A DNA stretch of 56,818 bases, taken from NCBI RefSeq assembly GCF_004116495.1, contig NZ_PDKC01000019.1, positions 1-56,818 on the forward strand, in the 5' to 3' direction. Within the stretch, counting starts at the first letter, position 1; each line of letters starts with the position of its first letter. Shown here in pieces: positions 7,278 to 28,673 of the stretch. The notes beneath the pieces were generated by a model. The model was not told the DNA's origin and ran no database searches. It was given only the letters and a program-made list of their open reading frames with translations. Made by a program: the position numbers and the translations under genes. Origin of the DNA: Arcobacter sp. CECT 8985. GTDB lineage: Bacteria; Campylobacterota; Campylobacteria; Campylobacterales; Arcobacteraceae.

Positions 7278-7888
7278 TAGAAGTATTTACTCATGGATTT
7301 ATTGTTGGAATTAGCTTAATTGTTGCAATAGGTTCTCAAAATGCATATATTTTGAAACTTGGACTTTTAAAGCAACATATATTTAAAGCTGTATTATTTT
7401 GTATAATTACAGATGTATTATTAATATCAAGTGGTGTTTTAGGTCTTGGATATTTTATAAAAGGGAATCAATTATTAATTAATTGCATTGCTATATTTGG
7501 AATTATTTTTCTTTGTTTTTACTCATTTTTGTCTTTTAAAAGTGCATTAAAAAATGAAAGTTTAAAAATAGATAATGAAGTGAAAACTAATCCTGTAAAA
7601 AAAGTATTTGCTATGCTTTTTATGTTTACATTTTTAAACCCTCATGTTTATTTAGATACTGTATTATTAATTGGCGGTATTGGTGCAAATGTAGAAGATA
7701 GTTTAAAAATATTTTTTATATTAGGAACTTCTACTGCTTCTGCTGTTTGGTTTTTATCATTAGGATATTTTTCAAGACTTTTAATTCCATTATTTAAAAA
7801 ACCTATAACATGGAAAATATTAGATATCTTAATTGCACTGTTGATGCTTTATATTGCTTATTCATTAACTGAATTGGTTAAATTATAG
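7274..7888 (+). CDS. LysE/ArgO family amino acid exporter
   Basis: The 204-residue, six-helix inner-membrane protein starts with GTG at 7274, overlapping the MarC stop (GTGA). The N-terminus contains GISLIVAIGSQNAYILKLGL, close to the family signature G-P-x-x-x-x-G-x-Q-N-A of LysE/ArgO exporters. The central NPHVYLDTVLLIGG is also typical of ArgO. The family exports basic amino acids such as arginine or lysine. Its place behind an amino acid importer suggests a matched import/export pair for balancing pools, which is an inference from context. Confidence 0.85.
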   Translation: MIEVFTHGFIVGISLIVAIGSQNAYILKLGLLKQHIFKAVLFCIITDVLLISSGVLGLGYFIKGNQLLINCIAIFGIIFLCFYSFLSFKSALKNESLKIDNEVKTNPVKKVFAMLFMFTFLNPHVYLDTVLLIGGIGANVEDSLKIFFILGTSTASAVWFLSLGYFSRLLIPLFKKPITWKILDILIALLMLYIAYSLTELVKL

Positions 7889-7901
7889 GAGTTAAATTAT
7901 T

Positions 7902-8693
7902 GTGGATTATATAGAAAAAATAGGTTGTTTTGAAGTTGTTTTAGATCCTTATAATGGAATAACAGTTTCAAAAGATACAGTTCCTTTTGATATTACAGAG
8001 TTTGAAAAAAATTTAATAAATCTTATTTCAGTATTAAAAAATAAGAAAAGAAGACTTATTTGGATAACTATTGATATAAATAAGTCTCATTTAATTCCTA
8101 TTGCAGTAAAGCATAATTTCGAGTTTCATACTTGTGAAAAAGATTATGTTTTTATGGTTAAAAGATTAGTTGATGATGCAATTATTCCAACTGCAGTGAA
8201 TCATACTTTAGGTGTTGGTGTAGTAGTTATCAATGATGATAATGAGATATTAGTTATTAAAGAAAGAGTTTCAAGACTTGGATATAAACTTCCTGGTGGG
8301 CATATTGATAATGGTGAATTAATTTCAAATGCTGCAGCAAGAGAAACTTTTGAAGAAACAGGGGTGAAAGTTGAGTTTGACTCAATAATAAGTATTGGAC
8401 ATTTTTATCCACATCAATTTGACCAGTCAAATTTATATGTTTTATGTAGTGCAAAGCCATTAAGTTATGAAATTAATATAAAAGACATTGCTGAAATTGA
8501 AGATGCGAAATGGGTAAATGTATTTGAATTTTTAGAAGATGAAACTGTTTTTGAATATAATAAAGTAATAATAAATGCAGCATTAAGTAAAAAAGGTTTT
8601 TACTCTCAAAAATTAGAAGCTTTTAAAAATATAAAAAAAGATTATGAATTATTCTTTCCTAAATTAAATGTTACAAATGAAAATTTAGCTTAA
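7902..8693 (+). CDS. Nudix hydrolase with NUDT6-like N-terminal domain
   Basis: This 263-residue cytosolic protein starts with GTG (7902), supported by TAGGAG upstream. The full Nudix box is G133-x5-E139-x7-R147E148-x2-E151E152-x-G154-V155, so it should be an active Mg-dependent pyrophosphohydrolase. Residues 1-95 form a second domain that reads like the GNAT-like pre-Nudix domain of eukaryotic NUDT6 and plant NUDX proteins (NGITV, then WITIDINKSHLIPIAVKHNFEFHTC). The substrate is unknown. It is last in the amino acid transport operon. A C-terminal helical tail of about 35 residues follows the Nudix fold. Confidence 0.87.
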   Translation: MDYIEKIGCFEVVLDPYNGITVSKDTVPFDITEFEKNLINLISVLKNKKRRLIWITIDINKSHLIPIAVKHNFEFHTCEKDYVFMVKRLVDDAIIPTAVNHTLGVGVVVINDDNEILVIKERVSRLGYKLPGGHIDNGELISNAAARETFEETGVKVEFDSIISIGHFYPHQFDQSNLYVLCSAKPLSYEINIKDIAEIEDAKWVNVFEFLEDETVFEYNKVIINAALSKKGFYSQKLEAFKNIKKDYELFFPKLNVTNENLA

Positions 8694-8767
8694 ATATATA
8701 CTGCTTTTATCATTTATTTACTATATAAGTGATATAAATACACAACTAAAAACAAGGTTAACAAATC
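8694..8767 (+). promoter_or_regulatory. Probable promoter of the thioesterase gene
   Basis: The 74-base gap contains TATATAAGTGATATAAAT-like AT-rich sequence with TATA boxes, and an AAGG ribosome site 10 bases before the ATG at 8768. No terminator hairpin for the upstream operon is visible, so read-through is possible. Confidence 0.35.
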
Positions 8768-9133
8768 ATGGAATATGGAACACAAAGATTAGTTATGTAT
8801 CCACATTTAAATGCAGCAGGAATCTTATTTGGTGGGCAAGCATTAGCTTGGATTGATGAAGAAGTAATCATCTTTGGTGCAAATAAACTAGGAACAACTA
8901 GACTTGCATTGGTTAAAATAAGCGAAATAAGATTTGAAAATCCAGCTAATATTGGAGATATATTAGTAATTGGAACAGAATTAGTAAAGATTGGAAGAAC
9001 TTCAATTACTGTAAAATGTGAACTTAGAAATAAAACGACTGACAAAGTTATTGTAAAAGTAGATGAAGTTGTTATGGTTAATTTAGATTATAATAAACAA
9101 CCAACACCTCATGGACTTCCTGAGCCAGATTAA
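8768..9133 (+). CDS. Acyl-CoA thioesterase, hotdog fold (YciA type)
   Basis: The 121-residue protein matches the length and sequence pattern of YciA/BACH-type acyl-CoA thioesterases. It has LNAAGILFGGQALAWIDEE (residues 15-33), carrying the catalytic Asp/Glu region and the Gly-Gly of the hotdog helix, followed by the typical strand segment FENPANIGDIL. Members hydrolyse acyl-CoAs to the free acid and CoA in the cytosol. The gene is monocistronic, ending in a strong bidirectional terminator that overlaps its stop codon. Confidence 0.85.
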   Translation: MEYGTQRLVMYPHLNAAGILFGGQALAWIDEEVIIFGANKLGTTRLALVKISEIRFENPANIGDILVIGTELVKIGRTSITVKCELRNKTTDKVIVKVDEVVMVNLDYNKQPTPHGLPEPD

Positions 9134-9154
9134 AAAGAATTCTCTTTTTAATCT
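9127..9154. terminator. Bidirectional terminator overlapping both stop codons
   Basis: A perfect 12-bp stem (AGATTAAAAAGA / TCTTTTTAATCT) with a 4-base loop contains the stop codons of both converging genes (thioesterase TAA at 9131-9133 and the oxygenase stop at 9148-9150). A-runs on the left arm and T-runs on the right allow it to act on both strands. Confidence 0.75.
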
Positions 9155-9891
9155 AAATCTTCTAACACAATTTCTTTAAAATCACTTCTTGTATTTTTTA
9201 TTGGGTTATTGCTTTTTGCTTTTACCGTATAAACAAATGAAATTTTAGGTTCATTTGTATCATTTTTATGGGCATGATGAAGCGTTTGGCAATGAAATAA
9301 AACAATATCACCTTTATGTAAATTATAATGTATTGCTTTATCAATTATTTGTTTGTTTTGTTTTAAATCATCTCTAAAACTTGTAGTTTCGTCAAATTGA
9401 TCTTTTTTTAATGTAAGCTTGTGTGAACCTGGAATGAATTCTAAAAGTCCATTTTCAAGAAATTCATCATCTAAACTTAACCATACACTAATTAAATCAT
9501 CATTTTCAAAATTCCAATATCTTCTATCTTGATGCCAAGTTGTTCTTGTACTATCTTTTGGCATTTTTGTCATAATTGAATTGTGGTGAGCAAGAGTTAA
9601 GACAGGAGTATCATTTAAAAGTTGTTTTAAAATTGGTCTAATCTGTTTATTTGTCATCCATTCTTTAAAAATATCTTCTCTATCATATACTTGTCTTAAT
9701 CTTCTAACTGTAATATTATCATCATTTACTCTTTGATACTCTTGTTCACTCTCTATTGGGGCTATTTTTTTATCTAAATGAATTTTTGCTTTTTCTAAAA
9801 TATCATCACATAATTTTTTATCTGCAAAATTTCTTAATAATAAAAATCCATCTTCATGAAACTGTTTAATCTGTTCTTGAGTTAGTTTCAT
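9148..9891 (-). CDS. Phytanoyl-CoA dioxygenase (PhyH) family protein
   Basis: The 247-residue protein is of the Fe(II)/2-oxoglutarate dioxygenase type. The iron triad is visible: His120-x-Asp122 in [10 protein letters not shown], and a distal His (205 or 206) in [20 protein letters not shown] near 148-158 is the family's conserved core strand. These enzymes hydroxylate small molecules with 2-oxoglutarate and O2, giving succinate and CO2. Its start overlaps the sucD stop by 4 bases, so it is translated with succinyl-CoA ligase. The usual 2-oxoglutarate-binding Arg after the distal His is not clear here (Lys216 lies nearby). The substrate is unknown. Confidence 0.83.
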
Positions 9892-10760
9892 TTTTTTGTA
9901 ACTTCCAAAAGTGCATCTTTTATACTAGTAATTGTTTTAACAGTATTTACACCAGCTGCTTGTAAAGCTTTATATTTGTCTTCTGCTTTTCCACTTCCAC
10001 CATCAATAATTGCACCAGCATGTCCCATTCTTTTTCCTTTTGGCGCTGTAACTCCAGCAATATAAGATACAACGGGTTTTGTTATATGATTTTTTATATA
10101 TTCTGCAGCTTGCTCTTCTTTTGTTCCACCAATTTCACCAATCATAACAATTGATTCAGTTTGTTCATCTTCTTCAAAAAGTTTAAGAATATCAATAAAA
10201 TCACTTCCAGGGATAGGATCTCCACCAATACCTACACAAGTACTTTGTCCAAGTCCTGCTAAAGTTGATTGATTTACAGCTTCATATGTAAGTGTACCAG
10301 ATCTTGAAACAATACCAACACTTCCAATTTTATGAATTTCAGCTGGCATAATACCCATCTTACCAATACCAGGAGTAATAACACCAGGGCAGTTTGGACC
10401 AATTAATCTTGCACCATTTGCATCCACTGCTGCTTTTGCATCTAACATGTCTTGAACAGGAATACCTTCTGTGATACAAACAATTAATTCAATTCCATTT
10501 TCAGCTGCTTCGATAATTGAATCTTTACAAAAAGGTGCAGGAACATAAATAACACTTGCATTTGCACCAGTTAAGTCAATACCGCATCTAACACTATTAT
10601 ACATTGGAAGATCAAGATGTGTTAAACCTCTTTTTTTAGGAACAACACCACAAACCATATTTGTGCCATACTCTAATGCCTTTTGTGTATGAAAACTACC
10701 TTGAGTACCTGTCATACCTTGACACATAATTTTTGTATTTTCATCTAATAAAATAGCCAT
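9888..10760 (-). CDS. sucD: Succinyl-CoA ligase, alpha subunit
   Basis: This is the 290-residue alpha subunit of succinyl-CoA synthetase, which with SucC interconverts succinyl-CoA and succinate with NTP formation in the TCA cycle. The CoA-binding N-terminal segment ([20 protein letters not shown]), the SRSGTLTYE loop (152-160) and the phosphorylated His247 in GHAGAII are all present. The length equals the family norm of 288-290. It lies 2 bases after sucC and overlaps the dioxygenase gene by 4 bases. Confidence 0.96.
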
Positions 10761-10762
10761 AA

Positions 10763-11929
10763 TTAGTTCCCTTTTGTTAATTCAATAATTTTTTTAGTTG
10801 CTTTATCTAAATCTTGCTCTTCTACAATGTTTAATCCTGACTCTCTTATTAGTTTAAGTCCTTCTTTTGCATTTGTTCCTTCAAGCCTTACTACAAGTGG
10901 GATATCCATTTTCATTTTATCAACTGCAGCAATAATTCCATTTGCAATTACATCACATCTTACAATTCCACCAAAAATATTAATAAGAATTCCATTTACT
11001 TTTTCATCTGAAAGTATAATTCTAAATGCTTCAATTACTCTTTGTTCATTTGTACTACCACCAACATCTAAAAAGTTTGCTGGTTCACCACCATATGTTT
11101 GTATAAGATCCATTGTTGCCATTGCAAGACCTGCACCATTTACCATACAACCAATATTTCCATCAAGTGAAACATAATTTAATTGCATTTTTTCAGCTTG
11201 TAACTCTCTTGCATCTTCTTGTGTTTCATCTCTAATTTCATTTAATTTTTTCTGTCTATAAAGTGCTGAGTTATCAACTTGTACTTTTCCATCTAAACAT
11301 ACTAAATCACCATGTTTTGTGATAACTAAAGGATTTACTTCAATAAGCGATAAATCATTATCTAAAAACATTTTATACATATTTTGTAAAAGGGGAATCA
11401 TCTGTTTTACTTGATGATCATCTAATCCTAGATCAAAGGCTATTTGTCTACATTGATAAGGCATAATTCCAACAACTGGGTTGATTTTGCTTTTTAATAT
11501 TTTTTTAGGATCATTTTTTGCAACCTCTTCAATCTCAATTCCACCTTCTATTGAAGTCATAATTGTAACTCTTTGACTACTTCTATCAATAACAAATGCA
11601 AGATATAATTGCTTATCGATTTCACAAGGTTTTTCAATATATAAAGAGTTAATAGGTTGTCCCTCTTTTGAAGTTTGGTAAGTAACTAATCTACTTCCTA
11701 AAAGTCTATTTGTTACTTCTTTTGCTTCTTTTTTATTTTTAGTTAATACAACACCACCAGATTTTCCTCTTCCACCTGCATGAACTTGTGCTTTTATTAC
11801 AAGATCTTCTTCACCTAGTGTTTCTAATATATCATCAAGTTGAGAACTATGTGTTAATAATTTGCCAACTGTTGTAGGAATTTTATATTTTCTAAATAGG
11901 TTTTTTGCTTGGTATTCATGTAAATTCAT
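10763..11929 (-). CDS. sucC: Succinyl-CoA ligase, beta subunit
   Basis: This is the 388-residue beta subunit with the opening MNLHEYQAK and an ATP-grasp domain containing [16 protein letters not shown] (about 45-60). The C-terminal ligase domain contains FLDVGG and [11 protein letters not shown], both hallmarks of SucC. It binds nucleotide and succinate and pairs with SucD encoded 2 bases downstream. The length is standard (386-388). It follows a small DUF1653-like gene by 30 bases and is probably in the same transcript. Confidence 0.96.
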
Positions 11930-19522: not shown

Positions 19523-21337
19523 ATGAGAAATAAAGTAATTACAGCTTCAGTTGTTGCTGCATCAGTGCTATTTACAGCATGTGCGTCAAAATCAGATATG
19601 ACTAATTCTACAGTTGAACACAATATTAAATTTAATGAAGTCCCTGTTCCAACAACAGATAATCAAAAAAGAAAAATAATTGCAACAAATCAAATTACAG
19701 TAGATGGTAGAAATACAAATATTTCTTATAACACTATTATTAGAAGTGGAGATAAAGTAGGGGATGGTATTTTTGGTCTGTTATATGATAAAAATGGTAA
19801 TCATATAAGACAAAAAGATGGTTCACTAAGAATCTCTAATTCTAATGATTTTGCTTCATTATTGCCAGTTGGAAATAAACTTTTTATGGTATCACACTTT
19901 GAAAGTAGACCAGCAGCTATGTATTTAACAGAATTAAAACAAGAATCAAATGGAAAATTAAAAGCTGTTAATACTAAAAATATTGATTTTTCTAAAGTAA
20001 ATGGATTATGGGTTCCATGTGCAGGAAGCGTAACACCATGGCATACTCACTTAGGAAGTGAAGAGTATGAACCAGATGCAAGAAAAATTGCAAGTGATGG
20101 ATCTTTAGATGATTATTATGCTCCTATGGCTGATTATTATAATAAAGATTTAAAAGCATTAAATGTTTATGATTATGGATGGGTTCCTGAAATATCAGTT
20201 TTAAATGAAAAAGGTGATGTTAAAGTTGAAAAACATTATTCAATGGGGAGATTTGCCCATGAGTTAGCTTATGTTATGCCTGACGAAAAAACTGTATATT
20301 TATCAGATGATGGAACAAATGTGGCTTTATATATGTATGTAGCAGATAAACCAAAAGATTTAAGTAGTGGTACATTATATGCTGCAAAATGGAAACAAAA
20401 AAGTAATATTAAAGCTGGTTCTGCAAATATTAAATGGATTAATTTAGGTCATTTAAGTGATGAATATGTAAAAGCTGGATTAGATCAAAAGTTAACTTTT
20501 GATGATTTATTTGAAGTTTCAGATTCACCAAAAGAAGGATTTTCTTCTATAAATACGACAATGGGTCATGAATATTTAAAAATTAAACCAGGAATGGAAA
20601 AATTAGTTTCAAGAATGGAAACAAGAAGATATGCAGCTATTAAAGGTGCAACTACTGAATTTAGAAAAATGGAAGGTATTACATATAATCCAAATGAAAA
20701 TAAAGTTTATTTATCAATCTCTGAAATTGCAAAAGGGATGGAAGATAATATGAAAAAAGGCAAAGTAAATAGCAAATATGACGATGGTGGAAATAATGAT
20801 ATTAGAGTCAAATATAATAGATGTGGTGCAGTTTATGAATTAAGTCTAGCTGGTACAGATGCAATTAAATATTCTAATGATGGCTCAGATATAAAATCAT
20901 CATATGTTGTAGAGTCTATGAAAGGATTGATTGCTGGTATGGAAAATAAAAAAACAGATGAAATGGCAAAGGCAAATAAATGTTCTTTAGATGGTTTGGC
21001 AAATCCAGATAATCTTACTTATATTCCAAATACAAATACTTTAATAATTGGTGAAGATACAGGATCAGGGCATCAAAATGATTTTATTTGGTCATACAAT
21101 ATTAAACAAAATAAATTAACAAGAATATTAACTTCACCTTATGGTTCTGAAACAACATCTCCTTATTATTATAATAATATTGGAGGTCATGGATATTTAA
21201 TGGCGGTTATTCAACATCCTTATGGTGAAGGTGATGCACTTACAAGTGAAACTAATATGCCAAAGAATGCAAACTCTGTAGGAGATATGAAGGCATATAC
21301 AGGTTTTATTGGACCACTTCCCGTAATTAGTAAATAA
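19523..21337 (+). CDS. PhoX/DUF839-family phosphatase-like lipoprotein
   Basis: This 604-residue exported protein has a signal peptide ending in a lipobox-like LFTAC (Cys20), so it is probably a periplasmic lipoprotein rather than a Tat substrate as typical PhoX is. WVPCAGSVTPWHTHLGSEEYEPDA around residues 154-177 corresponds to the CAG-x-TPW-x-T-x-x-x-EE active-site region of PhoX, which binds Ca and Fe. The later GMEGITYNP and ADNL-like segments (FRKMEGITYNP, GLANPDNLTYIP) are beta-propeller repeats common to the family. PhoX enzymes release phosphate from organic esters. An AGGAGAG ribosome site supports the start. No clear Pho box was found. Confidence 0.83.
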   Translation: MRNKVITASVVAASVLFTACASKSDMTNSTVEHNIKFNEVPVPTTDNQKRKIIATNQITVDGRNTNISYNTIIRSGDKVGDGIFGLLYDKNGNHIRQKDGSLRISNSNDFASLLPVGNKLFMVSHFESRPAAMYLTELKQESNGKLKAVNTKNIDFSKVNGLWVPCAGSVTPWHTHLGSEEYEPDARKIASDGSLDDYYAPMADYYNKDLKALNVYDYGWVPEISVLNEKGDVKVEKHYSMGRFAHELAYVMPDEKTVYLSDDGTNVALYMYVADKPKDLSSGTLYAAKWKQKSNIKAGSANIKWINLGHLSDEYVKAGLDQKLTFDDLFEVSDSPKEGFSSINTTMGHEYLKIKPGMEKLVSRMETRRYAAIKGATTEFRKMEGITYNPNENKVYLSISEIAKGMEDNMKKGKVNSKYDDGGNNDIRVKYNRCGAVYELSLAGTDAIKYSNDGSDIKSSYVVESMKGLIAGMENKKTDEMAKANKCSLDGLANPDNLTYIPNTNTLIIGEDTGSGHQNDFIWSYNIKQNKLTRILTSPYGSETTSPYYYNNIGGHGYLMAVIQHPYGEGDALTSETNMPKNANSVGDMKAYTGFIGPLPVISK

Positions 21338-21346
21338 GGATTTAAA

Positions 21347-21427
21347 ATGAGTTTTAAATCTTTAATTGAAGTACTACTTTTTTGTAGTACTTTTATTATT
21401 TATTATATTAAAGTAGAAAAAAGATGA
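21347..21427 (+). CDS. Putative 26-residue membrane peptide ORF, coupled to the di-haem gene
   Basis: The short ORF begins with ATG 21347 behind AAGGA (6-base spacing) and ends TGA at 21425-21427, overlapping the next gene's ATG as ATGA. It encodes a hydrophobic stretch (LIEVLLFCSTFIIYYI) ending in KVEKR, like a single small membrane helix. A perfect 9-bp hairpin sits within it. It could be a real small protein, a translated leader that couples the downstream gene, or chance. The ribosome site and exact overlap argue for translation. Confidence 0.4.
   Translation: MSFKSLIEVLLFCSTFIIYYIKVEKR
21369..21392 (+). terminator. Terminator-like hairpin after the phoX-like gene, inside the 26-codon ORF
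   Basis: AAGTACTAC (21369-21377) pairs with GTAGTACTT (21384-21392) around six Ts and is followed by TTATTATTTATT. It could end the phoX-like transcript or attenuate expression of the di-haem gene, depending on translation of the overlapping short ORF. Confidence 0.55.
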
Positions 21428-23094
21428 AGTATTTATTTTTCTTACTACTAATAACAATTGAGTCTCTTCATGCAAGTAAAGTTGATTTAAAAGATACAAT
21501 TTTTTATAATCCAACAGCTTATATAACAAGTCAATGTTATACAAAAACTATTCATGAAAAAGATAATAAACTATTGAGTAATCCATGTTATTCTTGTCAT
21601 AGAAAAAATAAAATTCCAAATTTCACATCTTCTGATAGTGATTTACAAGAAGAGTATTCTTTTCCATCTTCTGCATTAAAAAATCCATGGATAAATTTGT
21701 TTAAGGATAGAACAAAACAAGTTAGTAAAATATCAGATCAAGAGATTTTAAAATATATAAAACAAAATAACTATATAGATAAAAATAGGAATATTATTCT
21801 TGCTAAAAAATTAAAAAATCTTCCAACAAATTGGGATGCAAATAATAATGGCAAATGGGATGGCTATATCCCTGATTGTTATTATAATTTTGATAAAGAA
21901 GGTTTTGATAGGAATAATAAAGGTGATATTACTGGATGGAGAGCATTTGCATACTATCCATTTCTAGGTACATTTTGGCCAACAAATGGTAGCATAGATG
22001 ATGTACTTATTCGTCTTCCAAAAATATTTTGGAAAGATAAAAAGGGAAAAATAGATTTAGAAGTTTATAAAACAAATTTATCAATAGTAGAGAGTTTACT
22101 AAAGCAAAAAGATATATCAATAGAAAATATAGATGAATCAAAATTTGGTATAGATTTAAATAAAAATGGCAAAATTGATATTGCAAGTAAAATTGTATTT
22201 AAATGGAAAATACCAGATTATGATATTTCGACAAATAAATTAAAAAATTTTACTATGAGTTATGTTGGTTTAGCTCAAATAGCATTGTTAAATAATCAAA
22301 TACATATTGCACCAGGTTTGTATCCTAAAGGTACAGAATTTTTGCATTCTGTTAGATATTTGGATATTACGAAAAATTCACAAATAAAAATTTCTTCTAG
22401 AATGAAAGAGTTGAGATATGCCAAAAAAAGATATTGGTCAACATATTCTCAATTAGAGCAAATCAGTGCAGAAGAGATGAAAGATGAGAGTGATTATCCT
22501 GATAGAGCAGAAAAATATACAGGTAATATAGAAATAGGATTAAATAATAAAAGAGGTTGGTATTATCAAGGTTTTATTGAAGATGAAAAAGGTAATTTAA
22601 GACCTCAAAGCAAAGAGGAAACTCTTTATTGTATAGGTTGTCATAGTAATATTGGAGCAATTGCAGATTCTACATTTGTATTTCAAAGAAAGTTTGATAC
22701 AAAATCTTTAAAATATGGTTGGTATCATTGGACACAAAAAGGATTGAAAGGTATTAATGATAAAAAATTAATTTCAAATAAAACAGAGTATGCACGATAT
22801 TTGCAATTAAATAAATCAGGTGATGAATTTAGAGCAAATGATGAGATAATGAAAAAGTTTTTTAATAAAGATTTGAGTTTAAAAAAAGATGCTTTAAATA
22901 AATTAAAAAAAGATATTACTTTTTTAATTATGCCAAGTAAACAAAGAGCACTTAAACTTAATAAAGCATACAAAGTAATAGTTGAAGAACAAAGTTTTAT
23001 TTATGGTAGAGATGCACATATTAAGCCTATTAATACAGTACATAAAGTAGTTAAAGAGAATCAATTAACAAAGATTAAAAAAGTTAATAATTAA
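21424..23094 (+). CDS. Exported di-haem c-type protein with Ca-binding-like loops
   Basis: The 556-residue protein has a signal peptide (MKYLFFLLLITIESLHAS) and two haem c attachment motifs, CYSCH (55-59) and CIGCH (403-407). Three Asp/Asn-Gly-rich loops resemble EF-hand or thrombospondin-3 calcium loops: DANNNGKWDG near 138, DRNNKGDITG near 162 and DLNKNGKIDI near 244. It should be periplasmic or surface-exposed and could transfer electrons. I do not recognise a named family. It follows a PhoX-like gene through a 26-codon ORF whose stop overlaps its ATG; its own ribosome site is weak, so coupling seems likely. The function is unknown. Confidence 0.75.
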   Translation: MKYLFFLLLITIESLHASKVDLKDTIFYNPTAYITSQCYTKTIHEKDNKLLSNPCYSCHRKNKIPNFTSSDSDLQEEYSFPSSALKNPWINLFKDRTKQVSKISDQEILKYIKQNNYIDKNRNIILAKKLKNLPTNWDANNNGKWDGYIPDCYYNFDKEGFDRNNKGDITGWRAFAYYPFLGTFWPTNGSIDDVLIRLPKIFWKDKKGKIDLEVYKTNLSIVESLLKQKDISIENIDESKFGIDLNKNGKIDIASKIVFKWKIPDYDISTNKLKNFTMSYVGLAQIALLNNQIHIAPGLYPKGTEFLHSVRYLDITKNSQIKISSRMKELRYAKKRYWSTYSQLEQISAEEMKDESDYPDRAEKYTGNIEIGLNNKRGWYYQGFIEDEKGNLRPQSKEETLYCIGCHSNIGAIADSTFVFQRKFDTKSLKYGWYHWTQKGLKGINDKKLISNKTEYARYLQLNKSGDEFRANDEIMKKFFNKDLSLKKDALNKLKKDITFLIMPSKQRALKLNKAYKVIVEEQSFIYGRDAHIKPINTVHKVVKENQLTKIKKVNN

Positions 23095-24315: not shown

Positions 24316-24339
24316 AAAGAGTATTTATATACTCTTTTT
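24314..24339. terminator. Bidirectional terminator, glycerate kinase / dynamin
   Basis: A perfect 11-bp stem (AAAAAGAGTAT / ATACTCTTTTT) with a TTAT loop overlaps the stop codon of glycerate kinase and the stop codon of the converging dynamin-like gene. A- and T-runs on the two arms suit both strands. Confidence 0.75.
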
Positions 24340-26346
24340 TATTTCTATTAATTTATCTATTTTATTTTTAAAGTTTTGTTTTTTAGATTCTACAAATTTT
24401 ATTCTATCTTCATTTATTTCTAAATATTGTTCTTTAGAATATTTAATGATTTTAAATAAATAGTTTCTTTTTGATGTTAGAAAATCTTCAATTTTTTCAA
24501 ATGCAAAATTTGCTCTTAATTTAGTCAAAATTTCATCTTCTCTTGGATGATTAACACTAAATTTTGTAGGCTCTTTTTTATACAAATCTTCAGATTCTTT
24601 TATTTGTTGTTCAAAATGTGCAATAGTTGCTTGAGTTGTTTGAATATAAGAATATGATAATGCACCATTAAAATAAGCAAATTTCTTTCTTAAAGCTGAG
24701 ATATTTTCTAATATAGCTTTTTGATAATCTTTTAATACATTTTCATGTACTTTTGCAGCAAAGTGCCTTGTATTTGAAAACTCTAAATCAGATGCAATTT
24801 CTCTGTGCTTTCTTATCTTTTCATAGGCTTCTTGCCATTTGTGTACTTCTGATTCTAGTTTTCTGTATACTTCTCTGAAAGCTTCATCTGTTTGTAATTC
24901 ATTATTTTTTAACATTTTAATAGATCTTTTAAACATTTTATCTATTGTTTGATCATCATAAAATAGATTTTTATAAACATTGTCACTATCAATCCAATAT
25001 GTTTCATATTCAAATTTTTCTATTTTATTACCAGTTAGAAAGTTTCCTTTCTTTTCTTGATATCTAGTTGATTTAACTCTTTTTATATTTTTAAAAGTTT
25101 CATTTGCTATTTTTTCCATAATATTCTCTAAAGAATTATATATATTATATAAATCTTTAGAGTATTTTATATGAATTTCATCAAATGCATTGATAACTTT
25201 ACTTTCAGTATTTTTTAAAATATCTTCTAAAGAATCATAAGAACCAATAATCGTTTCATACTCTTTTATTAAAATATCACAAACACCTCTTAAATCATTT
25301 TTAATTGAAAACTCTTTTGCTTCTTTTGCTTGTGGTCTAATTGTATTTTCAATAAATTCTAAAACTTTATTAATATTTGAATCTTCGACTAGTTTTAGAT
25401 CTTGAGTATCATCTTTTATTTTAATTTTTGATACTTCTTGTTTAAAATCATTAAATTCTTTATCAAAAAACTCTATTGATTCAACTTGTAAATTTTCACT
25501 TAGTTTTGATTTGAATTTATTAGTAATTTTTTCATAAGCACTTTCAAGTAATATACTTTTTTGGTGTTGTCTTGAATCAAGTGCTTGTTTTGCAGAAATA
25601 GGTATAACTTCTGCAAAATATTTACCAAACTTGTTTTTTATATAGTTTGTAGTTGTACTAATTTGTTCATCTGTAAATTTATCTTTTTGATTTAATACAC
25701 ATAAAGATTTATTTTTAAAGTGTTGCATATACTCTTCTAATACTTCTGCCTCACTCATTTTACCTGCATTATCAATAAGAGTTAACCAAATAATACCACC
25801 TACATCTCTTAAAACTCTTCTTGTTGTTTCTGTATCATTTTGTGATTGTGAGTTAAGACCTGGAGTATCAACAAAAGAGATATCTTTTAAAATATCCATT
25901 GGAGCATATAATGTAAGATATTTTACATCATCTAATTCATCTTTTCTTTGGTCTGTAAAATCAGCAATTGCATCAATACTATGGTACTCTTCAGCACCTG
26001 ATTTATAAGTAATCTTAAGTTTATACTCTTCACCATAATTAATAAAATTTACTTTTGAAGTAACAGGAGTTATTCCTGTTGGTAAAATATTTCTAGATAA
26101 TAATGCATTTAAAAATGTAGATTTTCCAGCACTAAATTGTCCTGTTATTGCAACTTCCATTGGATATCTTGCTTTTCTATTAAATTTATCTAAAATTGAT
26201 TTTAATTGAACTGATGGCATAAATTCATCATCTAATAGTAAATCTTTTACTCTATTTATATTTCCTGTAATACTATCATCATATACGACCTCTTTTTTTT
26301 CGTATGCAAATTTATATTCATTTATAAACTGTTGTAATAGTTTCAT
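24325..26346 (-). CDS. Bacterial dynamin-like GTPase, second of a tandem pair
   Basis: This 673-residue dynamin-superfamily protein has G1 GQFSAGKST (69-77), G3 DTPG (160-163) and G4 NQKD (219-222). The long helical region after the GTPase domain (about 270-673) would form the neck and trunk, including a segment with many aromatics (KFAYFNGALSYSYIQ) that could be the membrane paddle. It overlaps the preceding dynamin gene by 4 bases. Such adjacent pairs are known in Campylobacter jejuni, where the two proteins (Cj0411 and Cj0412) form a hetero-oligomer that tethers membranes. Membrane remodelling is the likely role. The exact cellular job is unknown. Confidence 0.88.
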   Translation of the reverse strand: MKLLQQFINEYKFAYEKKEVVYDDSITGNINRVKDLLLDDEFMPSVQLKSILDKFNRKARYPMEVAITGQFSAGKSTFLNALLSRNILPTGITPVTSKVNFINYGEEYKLKITYKSGAEEYHSIDAIADFTDQRKDELDDVKYLTLYAPMDILKDISFVDTPGLNSQSQNDTETTRRVLRDVGGIIWLTLIDNAGKMSEAEVLEEYMQHFKNKSLCVLNQKDKFTDEQISTTTNYIKNKFGKYFAEVIPISAKQALDSRQHQKSILLESAYEKITNKFKSKLSENLQVESIEFFDKEFNDFKQEVSKIKIKDDTQDLKLVEDSNINKVLEFIENTIRPQAKEAKEFSIKNDLRGVCDILIKEYETIIGSYDSLEDILKNTESKVINAFDEIHIKYSKDLYNIYNSLENIMEKIANETFKNIKRVKSTRYQEKKGNFLTGNKIEKFEYETYWIDSDNVYKNLFYDDQTIDKMFKRSIKMLKNNELQTDEAFREVYRKLESEVHKWQEAYEKIRKHREIASDLEFSNTRHFAAKVHENVLKDYQKAILENISALRKKFAYFNGALSYSYIQTTQATIAHFEQQIKESEDLYKKEPTKFSVNHPREDEILTKLRANFAFEKIEDFLTSKRNYLFKIIKYSKEQYLEINEDRIKFVESKKQNFKNKIDKLIEIKKSI

Positions 26347-28673
26347 TTTTTACAACCCTCTTTTATACTTTCTAATTTTTTTAATTTTTTATGAATTTCT
26401 AGAGATAAAGTATCTCTATTTTTGTCATTTTCTTGAGCAAGTTTTAACTGATTATTTAGAATCTCTTCATCACTTTTTAATTTATCTTCAAAGTGTTTTA
26501 ATGGAGCATTTAATGCATCAAAAAAGTTATTAATCAACATTTGTGATATTTCATTTGCTTTTGTTGTAATACTTTTTTCAATAGTACTAAACTCTTGTTT
26601 TAAAAATAGTTCTATTTTTGATTGCAATTCTTCTAATTTAGTCGCTTTTGTTTTATTTACTGCATTAATTATTTTTGATATTAATATGTCATTTGATTTT
26701 GTTAAAAAACCACTTTTAAAGTCTTCTTGAAAAAAACCTCTTGCATCAAAATTATCATTTTTATGACCAATGGCAAATCCAAAATCATGATATTTTTGTT
26801 CACAAATTTCTCCAATACTTTGAGATTTTTTAATAAACTTATATCTATAATCTCTTATAATATCAATGATTCCATCTTTTATTGCTGTTTGTACAATACT
26901 TTTTGTTCTAGAGTCTTCAGGTTTTTTCTTATGTTTTTCATAAGTATATTTTACATCACTTATTACTCTTTGTTTTATAACATTTTGAAGTTCAATTAAC
27001 TCTGATACTAAAAATGTTTCTAATGAATTTATATAGTTTTTTGTATCATCCTTATAATATAAAATATCCTCTTTCATAGCTTGGAATATCTTCTCATTAG
27101 CAGTTTTTTTTCTATTAAAATTTTTTAATTCAGCTTCTAATTCATCTTTTGATTTAGATAATAATCTTAGCTCATAATTAAGTGCAGAATTTTGTTTTTC
27201 TATAGTTTTAATTAATTGAGATTTTGCACTTTTTACAATCAATTCACTTTTTGAACTATTTTTACCAAATAAAGAATCATTTAAATAATCTTCTATTTCA
27301 AGAATTCCTGTATCTTCTATTTTAAATCCTGCATCTAATGCTTCTTGCTGTCTATTTGTTCTATGAAGTAATGCCATTCTCCCTGAAATTGGTATAAATT
27401 TTATTGTTTTTAAAATATAGTCTAATTTACTATCTTTATTTAAAGCTTTTAGTTGTTGTTTTATTGAAGCTTTTGTATATTCAATTACTTCTTGTAGTTG
27501 TTCTTTTGTAACTGTATCTGCTCTTGTTATAACAATTAATAGTTTTGATATATTTTGATAAAGTAAAGCATCAATAATAAATTCTACATCTTTAAGTGTG
27601 GCACTTTGACTTACATTCATTAAGTGAAGCATCATATCACAATTTGATAAATACTCTTTTGTTATCTCTTCTCTTTGAATAACTGGGTCATCAAGTCCTG
27701 GAGTATCAACTATTTCAATTCCATCTTTTAAAAAATCTAAATTGGATTTTAATTCTACAAATTTTACAAGGTTACATTTTTTACCACTAGCTTCTGCTGA
27801 GGTAAAGGCTGCAAGATTGTTTATATCAACACTATCATTTCTTGATTCATCTTTTATATAATTATTTAATTCATCTTTAAATATTGATTTTGTTTCTATA
27901 ACAAAATCTTTGATTGATTCAATTTCATTTGCACTATTTTCAATTCTTTCCCACTCTTTTTTATTCCAATAAAAAACATTTGCACTTGGTGTTTTATCAT
28001 ATTTTACAATTGTTAAGTTTGCAGTCTCAGGAACAACAGCACTTCCTAATATTTCTTTGCCCATTAGTGCATTTAACATTGTTGATTTTCCAGCATTCAT
28101 AACACCAGTAATACCAATTGAAAATTTTTGATTATTTATATAATTAATTGTTTCATCTAAATTATTTTTTAATTCTTCTTTATTGAAAAGCTCTTTTAAT
28201 TCATTAACAATATCTTCTATTTGATTTTTATGCTCTTTAAATGTTAAGTTATTATCAATATAAATTTCTGAGTTTTTATTCTCTTCTACAACTAGTTCAC
28301 TAGGATCAAATAATGATATTAATTTTTCATTGTCTGCATTATTTAAAATATGTTCATTTTTTAGATATTCAAACGTACTGTGAAGTTTTTCTATCTCATC
28401 TTTATTGTTATGTTGGGAAATTATTTCTATTAAGTTATATTGTAATTGATATAATTCATTAATTGTGTTAGGTGTATTATTTGTTATTTTTTTACAAAGT
28501 TTATTGAAAGATTTTAAAGGTAAATATTTTTCATAATTTTTTCTTGTTGCACTTAAAATTAGCGCAGCAACTTCAAAAAATTCAGCTTCATTTGTATTTT
28601 TGATTTCATAAGAAATCTCTTTTTTTACTTGACTACCATGGTAAAGTAAAAAGTAATCGTTTGCTAAATTCAT
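26343..28673 (-). CDS. Bacterial dynamin-like GTPase, first of a tandem pair
   Basis: The 776-residue partner has an N-terminal helical extension of about 180 residues before the GTPase domain: G1 GVMNAGKST (190-198), G3 DTPG (323-326) and G4 TRAD (383-386). After about residue 480 come long coiled-coil-rich helices (RLLSKSKDELEAELKNFNRK) and a trunk reaching the C-terminus. The extension and order match the larger member of the Campylobacter dynamin pair. A GGAG ribosome site supports the start. The operon promoter is not obvious, because a strong frd terminator ends only about 25 bases upstream. Confidence 0.88.
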   Translation of the reverse strand: MNLANDYFLLYHGSQVKKEISYEIKNTNEAEFFEVAALILSATRKNYEKYLPLKSFNKLCKKITNNTPNTINELYQLQYNLIEIISQHNNKDEIEKLHSTFEYLKNEHILNNADNEKLISLFDPSELVVEENKNSEIYIDNNLTFKEHKNQIEDIVNELKELFNKEELKNNLDETINYINNQKFSIGITGVMNAGKSTMLNALMGKEILGSAVVPETANLTIVKYDKTPSANVFYWNKKEWERIENSANEIESIKDFVIETKSIFKDELNNYIKDESRNDSVDINNLAAFTSAEASGKKCNLVKFVELKSNLDFLKDGIEIVDTPGLDDPVIQREEITKEYLSNCDMMLHLMNVSQSATLKDVEFIIDALLYQNISKLLIVITRADTVTKEQLQEVIEYTKASIKQQLKALNKDSKLDYILKTIKFIPISGRMALLHRTNRQQEALDAGFKIEDTGILEIEDYLNDSLFGKNSSKSELIVKSAKSQLIKTIEKQNSALNYELRLLSKSKDELEAELKNFNRKKTANEKIFQAMKEDILYYKDDTKNYINSLETFLVSELIELQNVIKQRVISDVKYTYEKHKKKPEDSRTKSIVQTAIKDGIIDIIRDYRYKFIKKSQSIGEICEQKYHDFGFAIGHKNDNFDARGFFQEDFKSGFLTKSNDILISKIINAVNKTKATKLEELQSKIELFLKQEFSTIEKSITTKANEISQMLINNFFDALNAPLKHFEDKLKSDEEILNNQLKLAQENDKNRDTLSLEIHKKLKKLESIKEGCKK

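Follow-up and report, generated by a model that had tools for sequence, protein, structure and literature searches.

An exported protein with two c-type haem motifs is encoded directly beside a PhoX-like protein in the analysed window, which comprises 56,818 nucleotides of Arcobacter sp. CECT 8985 (contig NZ_PDKC01000019.1). As judged from its sequence, the protein very probably belongs to an unnamed exported family in which the second haem motif probably lies in a remote P460/c'-beta-type fold and which is genetically linked to a separate clade of PhoX-like proteins. That the two proteins form some sort of redox partnership is rather probable. The best explanation overall, with a probability of about 0.35, is that the dihaem protein acts in the periplasm as a redox partner of the PhoX-like enzyme and either loads it with iron or keeps its iron ferric. 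No published description of the dihaem/PhoX-like pair was found in the open-access literature.

The dihaem protein and its gene

The dihaem protein (P0001, 556 aa) is encoded by an open reading frame with an ATG start at 21424–23094 on the forward strand and has homologues. Its hydrophobic N-terminus, MKYLFFLLLITIESLHAS, was read as a probable Sec signal peptide of residues 1–17 (21424–21474, forward strand); the pLDDT of the model is low at residues 1–20. The two haem motifs, C55YSCH59 (21586–21600) and C403IGCH407 (22630–22644, both forward strand), are 348 residues apart and invariant in all 63 homologues compared. Two CxxCH motifs occurred in none of 20,000 shuffles of the protein, and the frame read on the opposite strand of the gene is full of stop codons. 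The sequence-only reading, which had described an exported protein with two c-haem motifs, was borne out in this respect. A further cysteine, C38 (21535–21537), lies outside these motifs and is likewise invariant (63/63).

The gap to the upstream PhoX-like gene measures 86 nt (21338–21423, forward strand) and contains two predicted hairpins, with a minimum free energy of -19.5 kcal/mol (z -3.76) for the fold of the gap. One of them, at 21368–21393, is terminator-like according to a pattern scan. The gap also holds an ORF of 26 codons (MSFKSLIEVLLFCSTFIIYYIKVEKR) whose stop overlaps the start codon of the dihaem gene. In the closest relatives the gaps are only 9–10 bp long and thus, neither the hairpins nor the small ORF are general. 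Elsewhere in the window, two adjacent genes for dynamin-family GTPases with 673 and 776 aa lie on the reverse strand (24325–28673) and overlap by four bases.

Three D-x-N-type loops are located between the two haem motifs, namely, loop 1 with residues 138–146 (DANNNGKWDG, 21835–21861), loop 2 with residues 162–170 (DRNNKGDITG, 21907–21933) and loop 3 with residues 244–252 (DLNKNGKIDI, 22153–22179), all on the forward strand. Three such motifs in relaxed form were found in 0.15% of 20,000 shuffles of the protein. Loop 1 (D138, N/D140, N/D142) and loop 3 (D244, N/D246, N/D248) are conserved in approx. 59–61 of the 63 homologues, loop 3 being missing from the two most distant members. Loop 2 keeps D162 and no other position. 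Thus, of the three calcium-loop-like motifs noted from the sequence, all are present, but only two are conserved and the remaining one is probably accidental. Read by eye, none of the three fits the strict EF-hand pattern of 12 residues, with Trp at position 8 of loop 1 and Ser at position 12 of loop 3; they may still be calcium loops of the looser DxNxNG type.

A probable remote P460/c'-beta-type domain around haem 2

The dihaem protein received no name from Pfam, NCBIfam or PDB sequence entries, and the PDB sequence search returned nothing of note among solved structures. Its best Pfam match was PF16694 (Cytochrome P460) at residues 375–410 with an E-value of 9.4e-5 and 23.2 bits, which is below the curated cut-off of 27. 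The same family was matched at E ≤ 0.01 by 59 of the 63 homologues, the best of them with 2.4e-7. An AlphaFold2 model built from 63 sequences reached a pLDDT of 93.5 and a pTM of 0.92. With this model, the top ten Foldseek matches were all P460 or c'-beta proteins with E-values between 0.07 and 0.7; no single match is significant and the fold evidence is therefore moderate. In VIA-align, the best 17 rows were likewise P460/c'-beta structures (Z 4.0–5.6 over 122–139 residues), headed by 6hiu with Z 5.6 over 136 residues at 3.3 Å, and the first unrelated row had Z 2.2. A profile-profile comparison of residues 285–430 with six P460-type sequences gave an E-value of 7.5e-7 and a probability of 92%. 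Only the E-value of this comparison was used: the automatic alignment of strands beta3 and beta4 was set aside because it crosses the helix insertion at 341–357, and the register of these strands was taken from the P-x-G-T motif instead.

Since Pfam, Foldseek, VIA-align and the profile comparison agree, each at a moderate level, residues 126–427 (21799–22704, forward strand) probably form a P460-type domain that is remote and expanded, with an insertion at approx. 228–300 in which loop 3 lies. The sequence-only reading could not name the family. The protein is indeed unnamed and no HMM match exceeds its cut-off, but the matches to PF16694 and the confident model, whose credible PDB neighbours are all P460/c'-beta proteins at modest scores, make its second haem domain recognisable as a probable, remote relative of that family.

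The register of the haem pocket was obtained from an alignment of solved structures with the P460 of L123, a relative within the Arcobacteraceae, and from a published comparison (PMC11928373, Table 2). In the latter, Lys78 of M. capsulatus, Lys106 of Nitrosomonas sp. AL212 and Phe61 of cytochrome c'-beta (T. thermophilus and M. capsulatus) are equivalent, and the carboxylate position is occupied by Asp102, Ala131 and Gly82. Counted on the aligned sequences, the Lys or Phe follows the Pro of the P-x-G-T strand motif, or the residue equivalent to this Pro, at a distance of seven residues. In the window protein, the same distance from P301 leads to His308 (22345–22347, forward strand), which would thus correspond to the Lys that P460s cross-link to the haem and is invariant (63/63). 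Glu329 (22408–22410, forward strand), also found in 63/63, is the probable counterpart of the distal carboxylate in a register that could be off by one; Phe61 and Gly82 are 21 residues apart, and so are His308 and Glu329. His308 may possibly act as distal base, as ligand or in a His-haem cross-link.

The PhoX-like partner

The upstream gene (19523–21337, forward strand) encodes a protein of 604 aa that is a probable Sec-exported lipoprotein with a lipobox ending in LFTAC20. It matched PF05787 with an E-value of 7.5e-26 and 91.8 bits against a cut-off of 24. Its model matched the PDB with a Foldseek E-value of 3.7e-19 and aligned with 4a9v at Z 27.0 over 440 residues, followed by other propellers at Z 22 over approx. 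270 residues. The identity to PhoX is remote (∼20%); still, the neighbour that had been called PhoX-like from the sequence is a true PhoX homologue by both sequence and fold.

The metal site was compared at five PhoX positions. C166, E247, D263, K382 and E384 of the PhoX-like protein match C179, E273, D292, R385 (with Lys as in Psip1) and E387 of PhoX, of which C179, E273 and E387 are metal-site residues. D292 and R385 belong to the site as well (PMC11098088). All five residues of the PhoX-like protein are invariant in 46/46 sequences and therefore, it probably binds an Fe/Ca cofactor.

According to pattern matches on mechanically assigned ORF starts, a twin-arginine motif was found in none of 88 PhoX-like homologues and a lipobox-like pattern in 65 of them. 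Some PhoX-like proteins carry a choice-of-anchor I domain.

Linkage and co-occurrence of the pair

The dihaem gene has strong matches in 15 of 100 relatives of the window genome. A PhoX-like gene (E below 1e-100) was present in all 15 of these and in three of the 85 others (Fisher p ∼3e-15, with kinship ignored). The three genomes with a PhoX-like gene and no detected dihaem gene are all fragmented MAGs. Both genes are missing from the five other genomes of the genus, so that the pair comes and goes together. Two genomes keep both genes apart from each other; in one of them (G046), they are separated by approx. 2.5 Mb on one chromosome.

An independent collection contained 354 candidate stretches encoding a relative of the dihaem protein. 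Among the best 80 of these 354, which are the closest relatives with a few repeats of genomes from the set of 100 and thus not a random sample, a PhoX-like gene was found within two ORFs of the dihaem gene in 77 of 78 informative loci. The 78th (L119) has its PhoX-like gene elsewhere in the genome, in two further loci (L064 and L104), which were not counted, the sequence stops with the dihaem gene, and in L101, L102 and L109 the PhoX-like gene was found to be present on recheck. The PhoX-like gene is located directly upstream in the same direction in 60 loci and is divergent in nine, with a median gap of 65 bp for adjacent pairs on the same strand. These loci come from four phyla and belong to Campylobacterota, Gamma- and Alphaproteobacteria, Desulfobacterota with Geobacter, and Deferribacterota. 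Linkage is also seen in distant pairs with 25–29% (L039, L040) and 36% identity (Pseudoalteromonas), and the pair is present in Sulfurospirillum cavolei and Thiomicrorhabdus arctica. In P. xiamenensis, RefSeq lists the upstream gene as 'alkaline phosphatase PhoX' and the dihaem homologue as 'hypothetical protein'. The association with PhoX-like genes that the sequence-only reading had raised is hence conserved, and it is well supported that the dihaem gene forms a genetic module with a distinct clade of PhoX-like proteins.

Variant architectures and neighbouring genes

Homologues from Sulfurovum and Sulfurimonas (L065 at 7815–10769, L068 and L071) are fused to a C-terminal Cytochrom_D1-type propeller (PF02239 with an E-value of 1.3e-68 in L065); in L071, the dihaem gene is split into two ORFs. 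Nine others, mostly from Desulfobacterota and Geobacter and approx. 1010–1160 aa in length, bear a PD40 propeller and a third CxxCH at the C-terminus (L067, L069, L076, L078, L085, L088, L090, L091 and L104). A second, distant dihaem paralogue of 683 aa with 28–29% identity separates the usual dihaem gene from the PhoX-like gene in L062 (5708–7759) and L063 (5746–7797).

Directly 3' of the dihaem gene, four loci (L051, L060, L064 and L075) have a gene for an MbnH/MauG-like dihaem enzyme. This enzyme family modifies partner proteins. The propeller, anchor and MbnH/MauG-like extras may point to redox chemistry that acts on a target in the periplasm or at the cell surface. A NicO-type metal transporter gene takes the same 3' position in 11 loci (L027, L029–L032, L042–L046 and L049) and is often followed by a DUF1007 gene downstream of the pair, which may point to a role of metals. 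Neighbouring genes depend on the lineage and none of them is a fixed third gene of the module. A general phosphate-starvation island was rejected, as the full pst/phoU set is present in only one of 80 loci, and the ABC transporter of L038 is of the polyamine type and not Pst.

Proposed function

We infer that haem 2 with its pocket of invariant His308 and Glu329 would be the reactive centre and that haem 1 would pass electrons to or from it. One step further, the two proteins may work jointly, at the cell surface or in the periplasm, where the dihaem protein would oxidise iron and load it into the Cys-ligated Fe/Ca site of the PhoX-like phosphatase, or keep this iron ferric. PhoX is exported by Tat, and insertion of its iron in the cytoplasm has been speculated (PMC4223295). 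Known PhoX is folded when exported, whereas the PhoX-like proteins look like Sec-exported lipoproteins, so that their metal site would have to form extracytoplasmically, in habitats that are often low in oxygen, rich in iron(II) or sulfidic. It is mainly this contrast that suggests maturation, and a role of the dihaem protein in iron maturation is proposed tentatively. In its most specific form, a dedicated dihaem maturase of P460 fold, possibly with a His-haem cross-link, would oxidise and insert iron into the Sec-exported lipoprotein in place of cytoplasmic loading and Tat export, which is rather unlikely in all its parts.

The P460-like pocket could serve a small-molecule reaction equally well. 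The two proteins might catalyse consecutive steps on one organophosphorus substrate, with the P460-like haem oxidising it and the PhoX-like enzyme freeing phosphate. The near-obligatory pairing, the reactive-looking pocket with its invariant His and Glu, and the phytase-like (in a few loci) or 5'-nucleotidase genes or fusions found in some loci are consistent with this; however, no substrate is indicated, the neighbours are lineage-dependent and pst/phoU genes are rare, and we regard it as rather unlikely.

P460 relatives oxidise NH2OH or bind NO, and a distal carboxylate is a feature of the active P460-type proteins (PMC11928373). A P460-like protein that converts or binds NH2OH, NO or peroxide and has no more than co-regulation in common with the phosphatase would agree with both, yet the cross-linking Lys is replaced by His in 63/63 homologues, and the neighbourhoods examined contain no pointers to nitrogen oxides and always a PhoX-like partner, which makes such a function unlikely.

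The remote resemblance to PhoX and the fusion of some dihaem homologues to other propellers (PD40, Cytochrom_D1) would fit a PhoX-like protein that is no phosphatase but a Ca/Fe propeller serving the dihaem enzyme as docking scaffold or substrate-binding subunit. This appears distinctly improbable, given that the metal-site residues checked either never vary or show the replacement seen in the active enzyme Psip1 and that the propeller fusions occur besides the PhoX-like gene and not instead of it. An ordinary dihaem electron carrier, with which the two CxxCH motifs alone would be compatible, is hardly conceivable beside a phosphatase, as linkage (77/78) and co-occurrence (15/15 versus 3/85) across phyla rule out chance adjacency of the pair.

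If the reading of the dihaem protein as a redox partner in iron loading is right, a branch of a main bacterial phosphatase family has an undescribed redox partner in hundreds of sulfur-oxidising, sulfate-reducing and microaerophilic species. The P460 superfamily would extend from small nitrogen-oxide cytochromes to large proteins that carry two haems and have His where the cross-link is formed in P460s, and extracytoplasmic assembly of an iron phosphatase would become testable.

Comparison with known systems

With the cytochrome P460/c'-beta superfamily (PF16694), the dihaem model shares the strand order, a haem motif placed C-terminally in the domain, the P-x-G-T strand motif and probably, in a register that may shift by one, a carboxylate at the distal position. 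It differs in being approx. four times larger, with a second haem domain in front at residues ∼19–125 and the insertion at ∼228–300, in having His and not the cross-linking Lys, and in a Pfam score under the curated cut-off. Like MauG and MbnH, which are dihaem enzymes serving a partner protein, it is predicted to carry two c-haems in one periplasmic protein; unlike them, it matches no MauG/peroxidase family of Pfam or NCBIfam. The PhoX-like partner resembles PhoX (PF05787; P. fluorescens PhoX, 4a9v) in its fold and in the metal-site residues compared, and is set apart from it by an identity of only ∼20%, an N-terminus that is lipobox-like without a Tat signal, and the pairing with a dihaem gene.
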